Positions 48,706 to 51,400 of a stretch of DNA of 64,000 nt are shown here, piece by piece. Source of the DNA: Planctomycetaceae bacterium (GTDB lineage Bacteria; Planctomycetota; Phycisphaerae; Phycisphaerales; SM1A02); assembly GCA_021297795.1 (NCBI GenBank), contig JAJTGL010000005.1, forward strand, positions 1 to 64,000. Direction: 5' to 3'. The stretch's first letter is position 1; every line of letters begins with the position of its first letter. The notes under the pieces were generated by a model. That model saw nothing but the letters and a program-made list of their open reading frames with translations. It searched no databases and was not told the DNA's origin. The position numbers and the translations under genes are program-made.

Positions 48706-49659
48706 CTACTGCGGGAGCAGGCACTCGCCCTTGAAGCGGTCGCTCACGCACGTCACCACGCTGTCCTCGATCTTGACGACCATCGGCGTCGCGACGAGGT
48801 AGTTCGGTCCGGGCGCGAGCAGCAGCGATTCGCAGCCGACGCACTCGACGGGGTCGGTCTCCTCGCCTGCACCGAGGTTCGGCACGCCGTCGGCGGGTGG
48901 GATCACGACCTTGAACACCTGTTCGAGCCGCGGCATCGAGAAGAACTGCCGGTAGATCGACTGGCAGGCGTTGCAGTTGGGCATGGAGAAGACGACGAAC
49001 GTCGTCTTGCCGCGCACCAGTGCGGGCAGGCTCGGGAGGTAGTTCGCAAGCGGAGTCTCCTCGACGCGCCGCCCCACGTACGGGTGCATGTCGAGATCGA
49101 TGTTGACCACCCGCGAGGTGGTTTCCGCCGGCTTCGCTGCCGCGGGATCGGGTCGGTTGGGGTCGGTCGCTGGCCCCGCGATTCCGCCCGCCACCGTCGC
49201 GAGCGCGATCAGGCCGAACGCGGTCCATGCCGGCGAGAGTCCGCGGCGCGCCGAGGACTCGTCGGACTGCGTGCGGAGCATCGCCCAGAGGAGCGTCCCC
49301 GAGACCACCAGCGAGAGCGCCGGGAATCCAAGCCCGCCCGCGGAGATCGCACGCGAGACGCACGCAAGCGAGATGAAGGCGGACACGCTGCAGGCAACGA
49401 TGGGGAGAAAGCGGTTCGTCCCGAGCACGCCGTAGAGCAGGACCGCCACCGCACCCGCCGCAGTCGCGGCCGCGATGAGCCGCGCACAGAGTTCGGGCGG
49501 GTACTCGAAGAGCGCGCGCAGGAGCTCGACGATCGGATCAGGTACCGCTGTGACCGCGCCACGGAACTGAAGCGTGGCCGCGATGGCGAGCGCCGTCGCG
49601 ACGGCGAGCGAGACGACGCGCGGTCGACGAAGGAGGGGAACGGCGGGCGTGGTCGTCAT
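48706..49659 (-). CDS. Membrane protein with C-terminal three-cysteine-pair thiol module
   Basis: The 317-residue protein has about four to five membrane helices (residues 15-165). After a Pro/Asp linker comes one copy of a thioredoxin-like module: FVVFSMPNCNAC (CxxC at 229/232), a second pair ECVGC (273/276), a cis-Pro-like YLVATPMVV, and Cys 304 and 313. The same module appears twice in the neighbour at 49685-51400. The CxxC and the TP motif indicate a thioredoxin fold outside the membrane. It lies 25 bases after the upstream gene, so the pair forms an operon. Substrate unknown. Confidence 0.75.
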   Translation of the reverse strand: MTTTPAVPLLRRPRVVSLAVATALAIAATLQFRGAVTAVPDPIVELLRALFEYPPELCARLIAAATAAGAVAVLLYGVLGTNRFLPIVACSVSAFISLACVSRAISAGGLGFPALSLVVSGTLLWAMLRTQSDESSARRGLSPAWTAFGLIALATVAGGIAGPATDPNRPDPAAAKPAETTSRVVNIDLDMHPYVGRRVEETPLANYLPSLPALVRGKTTFVVFSMPNCNACQSIYRQFFSMPRLEQVFKVVIPPADGVPNLGAGEETDPVECVGCESLLLAPGPNYLVATPMVVKIEDSVVTCVSDRFKGECLLPQ

Positions 49660-49684
49660 CGTGCGTTTCGGGGCGATGCGCGGG

Positions 49685-51400
49685 TCACTCGTTGAACTTG
49701 AGGCACGCCTCGAGTGCGGCCATGTCGTCGACGTTCTCGATCACGCACTCGACGACGCCGTCGTTGATCGCAAGCACCACGGGCGTGGCGATCACGTAGT
49801 TGGGTCCCTTCATGAGCGAGACCTTCGCGCACTCGTCGCAGGGATTGCCGAGGATCCCGTTCGGATCGGCGTCCGGGATGGCGACGGTGAGCGTCGGGTA
49901 CTTGAGCTTGCCTGTGAAGTGCGTCGAGAGCAGCTCGTAGCAGTGGTCGCAGTCCTCGCGGAAGAAGACGACGATCCAACGGCCCTGCAGGAAGTTGGCG
50001 GGCAGCTTGTTCTCCATGAGGAGCGCGAACGGGAGTTCCGCGAGCGGCTTGCCCACCGCCTCGCCGAACTCGGCGACGTAGAAGCTCTTCAGCGTCGCCG
50101 GTGGGCCGGGCCAGGTTGCGGCGGGCTGGCGTTCGGTCGGTTTGGTTTCGACGGGGGTTGGCGTCGTGGCGGGAGGTGTGGTTGTTGGCGCAGTGGGCGC
50201 CGCGGCCGATCCGCCCGCGCTCTTCGGGAACACCGAGTCGAACTCCTCCGCGTTCGCGCGATCGGTGCAGACACCGGTGACGATGCCGTCCTTCATGCGC
50301 ACGATGACCGGGGTGCGGAAGACGTATTCGGGGCTCTTCCCCTTGTGCGACTCGCCCGCACGGACGTGGTAGAGCTTGCGCTCCTCGCAGCCGTTGCAGG
50401 GCATGCCGAGCATGGTGCCGCGTGCGTCGGGCACGTTCACCTTCATCACGCGCTCGGCGCGTGGCTCGGCGAAGTAGGCCCGGAACATGGACTGGCAATC
50501 GGAGCAGTCCTGGCGAGAGAAGGCGATCAGCCAATCGCCCTTCTCGAAATCGGCGGGCATCGGTCCGTCGATCGCGAGCGCGAGCTTCTGGTCGCGGAAG
50601 GGCTTGCCGATCCAGTCCTTCCAACGCGGGAAGTAGTTCTTCTCGTACTTCGCCGGTGGTGCGGGCCAGGGGCCACCGATACCGTTCGCCGCCGGCGTGG
50701 TCTGCGTCGTGGTGGGCGTGGTCGCGGGGGTTGTCGCCGGGGTGGTTGCCGCGGTTGTATCGGCGGCGGGCTCGGGGGCCTTCACCTCGGGTTCGGGTAC
50801 CGCGAACGTGGCGATCGCGCCGATCGCAAGCGGCACGAGCACCGGGACGAGCGAACCGACCCGGGCGCGGGGCACGAGGAAGAGCGCGTTCACGAGAAGG
50901 AGCGCATCCACGAGGAACATCACGCTCGCCGGAAGTCCGTCCTCGCCGAAGCAACCGCAACCGCCCGTGAGCGCCTTGGCAACGCCGTCCTTCATGGCGG
51001 TCGTCACGATCGCGTAGGTCAGGATCGCGCAGAAGACCGAGAGCGTGAGGATCGCGAGCAGCCGTGCGTAGCGCGTCGAGAGGAGGATCGCCAGCGCGAT
51101 GAAGACCTCGGCGCCGATGATCGAGCGAAGCGACCACGTCATGAGGAGATCAGGGTCGACCGACGTCGACTTCATGACCCACTGCAGGAGCGAGAGGATC
51201 GGCCCGGGAAGCAGGTTCGGGTTGAACTCCCAGGCCTTCATGACCGCGCCGTAGCCGATCCACGCCGCCGTGGCGCCGTGGAGGACAACCAGCGGCGCGA
51301 TGCCGAAGCGACCGGTGGCAGACGCCGCGGGGGCGGGTGCGGAGGCCGTCGTCGACTTCGAGGGAGCGGGGGAGTTGCTCTTGGCGTTCTTGCGCGACAT
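49685..51400 (-). CDS. MauE/DoxX-like membrane protein with two extracytoplasmic thiol modules
   Basis: The 571-residue protein begins with a membrane domain (about residues 35-200) resembling MauE/DoxX, with GCGCFG near 148-152, a known redox-linked membrane motif. A Pro/Thr-rich linker follows, then two copies of a thioredoxin-like module at about 250-390 and 435-571. Each has CxxC (C299/302 and C484/487), a second pair (C335/338 and C521/524), a TPV cis-Pro motif and a late Cys (C378; C552, C566). A second Pro/Thr linker separates them. No cytochrome or MauD gene is near. A role in thiol relay or sensing is inference. ATG 51400 is the first plausible start. Confidence 0.75.
   Translation of the reverse strand: MSRKNAKSNSPAPSKSTTASAPAPAASATGRFGIAPLVVLHGATAAWIGYGAVMKAWEFNPNLLPGPILSLLQWVMKSTSVDPDLLMTWSLRSIIGAEVFIALAILLSTRYARLLAILTLSVFCAILTYAIVTTAMKDGVAKALTGGCGCFGEDGLPASVMFLVDALLLVNALFLVPRARVGSLVPVLVPLAIGAIATFAVPEPEVKAPEPAADTTAATTPATTPATTPTTTQTTPAANGIGGPWPAPPAKYEKNYFPRWKDWIGKPFRDQKLALAIDGPMPADFEKGDWLIAFSRQDCSDCQSMFRAYFAEPRAERVMKVNVPDARGTMLGMPCNGCEERKLYHVRAGESHKGKSPEYVFRTPVIVRMKDGIVTGVCTDRANAEEFDSVFPKSAGGSAAAPTAPTTTPPATTPTPVETKPTERQPAATWPGPPATLKSFYVAEFGEAVGKPLAELPFALLMENKLPANFLQGRWIVVFFREDCDHCYELLSTHFTGKLKYPTLTVAIPDADPNGILGNPCDECAKVSLMKGPNYVIATPVVLAINDGVVECVIENVDDMAALEACLKFNE

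Follow-up and report, generated by a model that had tools for sequence, protein, structure and literature searches.

MauE, a membrane protein of methylamine utilisation clusters, works with a periplasmic thioredoxin-like partner, MauD. Membrane proteins of the MauE and DoxX-like types are common and poorly understood. In VKOR-DsbA fusions a membrane redox bundle is followed by one or two thioredoxin-fold domains, and in DsbD a thioredoxin domain is coupled to a membrane electron path. The thioredoxins TlpA, ResA, CcmG and SdbA have a CxxC at the start of a helix and a proline before the last hairpin.

Two adjacent genes with a comparable plan lie in the window, a stretch of 64,000 nucleotides (contig JAJTGL010000005.1, positions 1 to 64,000) from a planctomycete assembly of 3.2 Mb in 147 contigs. 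Both are on the minus strand, and gene 2 starts 25 nt downstream of gene 1. Their features are as follows.

49685..51400, minus strand: gene 1, 571 aa, a MauE-like membrane domain and two tandem thioredoxin modules
50801..51310, minus strand: gene 1 residues 31-200, five membrane helices, Pfam MauE
50951..50959, minus strand: gene 1 CGC (C148-C150) within the CxC[F/L]G motif, in the loop that joins helices 3 and 4, predicted to be extracytoplasmic
50225..50653, minus strand: thioredoxin module 1 of gene 1, residues about 250-392
50495..50506, minus strand: first CxxC of module 1, CSDC, C299-C302
50387..50398, minus strand: second CxxC of module 1, CNGC, C335-C338
50309..50314, minus strand: TP of module 1, residues 363-364, predicted cis-proline
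49688..50083, minus strand: thioredoxin module 2 of gene 1, residues about 440-571
49940..49951, minus strand: first CxxC of module 2, CDHC, C484-C487
49829..49840, minus strand: second CxxC of module 2, CDEC, C521-C524
49703..49747, minus strand: late cysteine pair of module 2, C552 (last strand) and C566 (last helix)
48706..49659, minus strand: gene 2, 317 aa, a gene-1 paralogue that lacks the membrane CxC and has one thioredoxin module
49177..49623, minus strand: gene 2 residues 13-161, five membrane helices, a VKOR-like or NACHO-like bundle by structure comparison
48964..48975, minus strand: first CxxC of gene 2, CNAC, C229-C232
48832..48843, minus strand: second CxxC of gene 2, CVGC, C273-C276
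48721..48750, minus strand: late cysteine pair of gene 2, C304 and C313

Module 1 has a single late cysteine, C378, and in the sequence TP precedes the last hairpin of each of the three modules. The preliminary description of this DNA had listed the variants CSDC, CDHC and CNAC, all of which we read at the positions above, and its order of CxxC and TP stands. Its second cysteine pair is in fact also a CxxC, and its single late cysteine does not apply to module 2 or to gene 2. It had not mentioned that gene 2, too, begins with a membrane domain of five helices, which is a MauE paralogue lacking CxC.

How does this locus compare with the described systems? Gene 1 shares with MauE a membrane bundle carrying CxC[F/L]G; however, its thioredoxin part is fused, no methylamine genes were recognised nearby, and the window protein stays below the Pfam cut-off for MauE (PF07291; 22 bits, E 2e-4, cut-off 27). 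A VKOR-DsbA-DsbA fusion in the same bacterial family has the plan of gene 1, but genes 1 and 2 match neither Thioredoxin_4 nor DSBA, nor VKOR (PF07884, at E up to 10); there is one CxC here where VKOR has cysteine pairs, and the modules add a second CxxC. The modules resemble TlpA, ResA, CcmG and SdbA in predicted fold, in the helix-start CxxC and in the proline, but in place of the helix-3 region they have a loop and a hairpin with the second CxxC, a late cysteine pair is added, and they match no sequence family above cut-off. The likeness to DsbD is functional only: DsbD_TM (PF02683) matches neither protein, and the DsbD of the window genome is on another contig. The BT_3928 family (NF045576) weakly matches 7 of 50 members (best 1e-6), and the window protein is far below its cut-off (9.2 bits against 250).

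The module does not reach the cut-off of any curated Pfam or NCBIfam model, the best curated thioredoxin family, Thioredoxin_2, scoring 16.9 bits against a cut-off of 27; TrbB (TIGR02738) weakly matches 11 of the 50 members but not the window protein. Among PDB sequences, profiles of the gene-1 and gene-2 families found only short active-site matches to PDI-type domains. In the literature we found nothing on point that links MauE to thioredoxin, MauD, VKOR or DoxX, 'MauE' having apparently matched mostly longer words or names. The earlier statement that no named family has this plan is thus right for the module, as judged from Pfam and NCBIfam, and wrong for the GCGCFG domain, which belongs with MauE. 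The family is undescribed in these two collections, but it is a variant of a known arrangement, a membrane redox bundle plus thioredoxin.

Homology and predicted fold of the two proteins

Sequence comparison indicates that the three modules are homologous, in agreement with the common motif order first noticed in them. With gene 2 as query, a search of the window genome recovers both gene-1 modules (E about 1e-10), and a profile comparison of the full gene-1 and gene-2 families gives E 4e-38 over a whole-length alignment that includes the membrane domain. Since the two families align end to end, gene 2 is a complete paralogue of gene 1 that lacks GCGCFG.

The MauE profile matches 37 of 50 gene-1 orthologues at E<=0.01, with a best value of 3e-11, and several relatives exceed the Pfam cut-off. 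C148 and C150 are invariant across the gene-1 family, and gene 2 has no CxC. The MauE/DoxX-like domain initially noted with its GCGCFG is supported by these matches, and because CGCFG, CGCLG or CACLG is found in other MauE matches from this bacterial family, GCGCFG is an ordinary MauE motif. The membrane part of gene 1 belongs with Pfam's MauE and resembles VKOR/DoxX-like four-helix bundles. Counting from the positively charged N-terminus, each protein would have its N-terminus inside, with the GCGCFG loop and all modules outside.

Some MauE matches have other fusion partners. In L117, L119 and L123 (genomes G094, G061 and G034) a heavy-metal-associated-like domain is fused to a MauE-like domain with CACLG; these are possibly metal-related kin of MauE. 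In L115, L116 and L118, all from G024, which totals nine MauE matches, CGCFG MauE domains are fused to a long C-terminal part.

AlphaFold models built from family alignments reach a mean pLDDT of 89.4 for gene 2 and 86.3 for gene 1, with five membrane helices in each protein. The modules, confidently predicted, have the thioredoxin strand order, the first CxxC at a helix start and the proline before the last hairpin. The second CxxC follows strand 3 and precedes the hairpin; module 2 and gene 2 each have one further cysteine in the last strand and another near the C-terminal end. Foldseek alone found nothing in the PDB at E<=0.001, so a second look was taken with VIA-align, which matched the modules to SdbA, DsbE-type proteins, CcmG and ResA at Z 8.0-9.3 and also to peroxiredoxins (Z 8-9); the comparison for gene 1 used the full-length model, and module 2 dominates its matches. 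The thioredoxin fold read from the sequence is supported by these models and matches, and the models together with the MauE profile agree with the proposed tandem modules on redox-type membrane helices. For the membrane helices of gene 2 it gives human VKOR (Z 8.5, 116 residues), below the tool's safe level for helical bundles, and NACHO/TMEM35A (Z 7.8); for such bundles these scores may mean only a common arrangement.

Cysteine conservation and history of the modules

Our comparison covered 157 modules, taken from the window and the named loci. All 157 keep the first CxxC, a count that is partly due to search design, the scan pattern having favoured CEHC/CDHC. All 48 gene-2 modules keep it too, in loops such as CNAC and CGSC that mostly fall outside the scan pattern and so would not have been picked by it. 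The proline of TP before the last hairpin is found in 156 of 157 modules (one row is incomplete). The second CxxC is complete in 140, absent from 14 and half present in 3. In the 48 gene-2 proteins of alignment A4 all six module cysteines are invariant; in the comparison of all modules, 47 of the 48 gene-2 modules have both late cysteines. Across all modules the late pair (columns 129 and 142) occurs together in 90, with column 129 alone in 3 and column 142 alone in 21. As judged from the alignments, this cysteine pattern exceeds chance.

Are the modules no more than disulfide-stabilised structural or substrate-binding units, with no redox turnover? The late pair behaves like a structural disulfide in gene 2, as that idea would have it. 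However, the first CxxC and the cis-proline are never lost, the loop residues vary by paralogue, as in redox-tuned thioredoxins, and the modules are fused to a MauE CxC. We regard this explanation as highly improbable.

The second CxxC was lost on at least four separate parts of the module tree: in the middle genes of triplet loci, in the double modules of L054 and L103, in L073, and in L102, L104 and L107. It is usually kept or lost as a unit. Because these losses occur on several branches while the first CxxC stays, the sequences indicate that the second pair serves as an accessory dithiol instead of making up one half of a metal site; we considered a single four-cysteine metal site and rejected it in view of the branches that lost pair 2 and kept pair 1. 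A broader role in metal or cofactor handling, with the paired CxxC motifs as ligands for copper, zinc or an Fe-S cluster during metalloprotein assembly, would suit modules with two CxxC each and relatives in which MauE-like domains are fused to heavy-metal-associated domains. It accords poorly with the absence of an obligate four-cysteine site and with the retention of the cis-proline, a feature of disulfide exchangers, and we consider it unlikely.

In the module tree, all gene-2 modules fall in a single well-supported group, in which one row is typed differently. The module-1 sequences of the window's relatives share a clade, and those of module 2 share another. Proteins with two modules evolved repeatedly (the window group, L054/L103 and L052/L093), and a separate group carries three genes in a row; the widespread form is a MauE-thioredoxin protein with a single module. 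In five triplet loci (L053, L069, L076, L081 and L088) the middle gene keeps the first CxxC, and ST[I/L]V stands at the position of the other. L125 (G024:C1:3056218-3057183) is a second MauE-thioredoxin protein that has CHHC, lacks the other CxxC of the module and is possibly a more basal form.

Distribution, neighbourhood and redox inventory

Of the 151 genomes in the window's GTDB family, 140 have a MauE-thioredoxin match, as do 95 of the 98 good ones. The strong matches in our sample of the order come from this family; the rest of the phylum has fewer and weaker ones, and there are a few relatives in Acidobacteriota. Within the GTDB family gene 1 is near-universal; beyond the family it is sparse and its sequence has diverged. 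About half of the sampled genera of the family have gene 2. Most of the nearest named relatives are freshwater metagenome-assembled genomes (MAGs) labelled Planctomycetota, Planctomycetaceae or Phycisphaerales. Three contigs that carry this planctomycete locus and are deposited as Limnohabitans, Candidatus Kuenenia and Singulisphaera (L036, L038 and L063) are probably from mislabelled or mis-binned MAGs.

The pair adjoins two genes that, from reading their sequences, we take to be gmhA and tilS. The latter is convergent and downstream in 43 of 79 loci; the former lies directly upstream in 34 of 79, though not in the window, and we draw no function from an operon link to it. These neighbours give no redox hint. 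The preliminary description had offered a thiol relay or a sensor. A sensor reporting redox state to a regulator could use several cysteine pairs, possibly with different potentials, but no regulator or kinase was recognised in the conserved neighbourhood of this near-core locus, and Pfam and NCBIfam detect no signalling domain in either protein. We find no support for this part of the proposal, the least credible reading of all; a thiol relay is the best reading of the combined sequence and model features.

The redox genes were inventoried in 61 genomes of the family, 43 of them good. DsbD is found in 43 of 43 good genomes, profile matches to VKOR in 18 and to DsbB in 10, with neither of the two in 18; Thioredoxin_4 is matched in 25 and DSBA in 24. 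The window genome has no match to Thioredoxin_4, DSBA or VKOR, absences that are weak for this genome alone because it is 83% complete, and it contains one DsbB-like gene of 200 aa with FPCPLC (L127:1157-1759, contig C32). In a congener that is 97% complete (G003), there was no match to DsbA, VKOR or DsbB.

DsbA-like domains are present in 8 of 23 genomes with gene 2 against 15 of 19 without it (p 0.006, uncorrected for shared descent). With one genome per genus, the figures are 5 of 16 and 13 of 16 (p 0.011, likewise uncorrected). This anti-correlation could reflect one or a few events.

A candidate thiol-disulfide chain

From the homology, cysteine conservation, predicted fold, gene pairing and distribution we infer, with a probability of about one half, a periplasm-facing membrane thiol-disulfide chain that is oxidising or isomerising rather than reducing and partly replaces DsbA/DsbB or the VKOR-DsbA-DsbA fusion. 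A MauE CxC and outward modules with CxxC, proline and an accessory CxxC fit a disulfide relay. The CxC of gene 1, at the predicted outer face, would pass electrons between a membrane acceptor, probably a quinone, and the CxxC motifs of the attached modules. The first CxxC, next to the cis-proline, may exchange with presumed substrates, the second could hand electrons on or resolve mixed disulfides, and the late pair would be a structural disulfide. Gene 2, without CxC, would be fed by its putative partner, gene 1. To place an accessory CxxC next to the active-site region is a plausible way of passing a disulfide inside one small module.

Is the direction of this chain oxidative? We prefer the oxidative or isomerising direction because of the CxHC rule in gene 1, because DsbD already reduces, and because DsbA-like domains are rarer where gene 2 is present. 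CxHC, a loop like those of DsbA and PDI, occurs in module 2 and in all single-module proteins, a regularity that is partly set by the search pattern; and DsbD in 43 of 43 good genomes means that a reducing route is already in place. Against the oxidative reading, the CNAC and CGSC loops of gene 2 are atypical of oxidases, and the reductants CcmG and ResA among the closest structural kin, as predicted by the models, would also count against it.

The same structural matches, with the DsbE-type proteins, and the universality of DsbD are consistent with a reductive chain, which would keep certain extracytoplasmic thiols reduced in the manner of CcmG, ResA or DsbE, with electrons from DsbD or through MauE. 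However, the CxHC loops of gene 1 do not suit this role, oxidation would be left unprovided for in the many genomes without a DsbA-like partner system, and among the conserved neighbours we recognised no genes for cytochrome maturation. Such a chain is possible, and appreciably less probable than the oxidising or isomerising one.

A near-universal MauE-thioredoxin fusion, often without detectable DsbA, VKOR or DsbB, offers a clean test of MauE-driven disulfide formation. We tentatively suggest, as a proposal more doubtful than the chain itself, that in a large family of Planctomycetota classical DsbA is often replaced by a MauE-driven chain of two-dithiol thioredoxins, running from gene 1 (with one or two modules) to gene 2, which would make it a third bacterial oxidative folding pathway beside DsbB-DsbA and VKOR-DsbA. 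Genomes with DsbA or VKOR still retain gene 1. In these, VKOR is commonly encoded in the same frame, 600-730 aa long, as two DsbA-like domains, for instance in G068:C156:2429-4084; similar frames occur in G021, G022, G027, G036 and G074, several of them with two DsbA-like domains.
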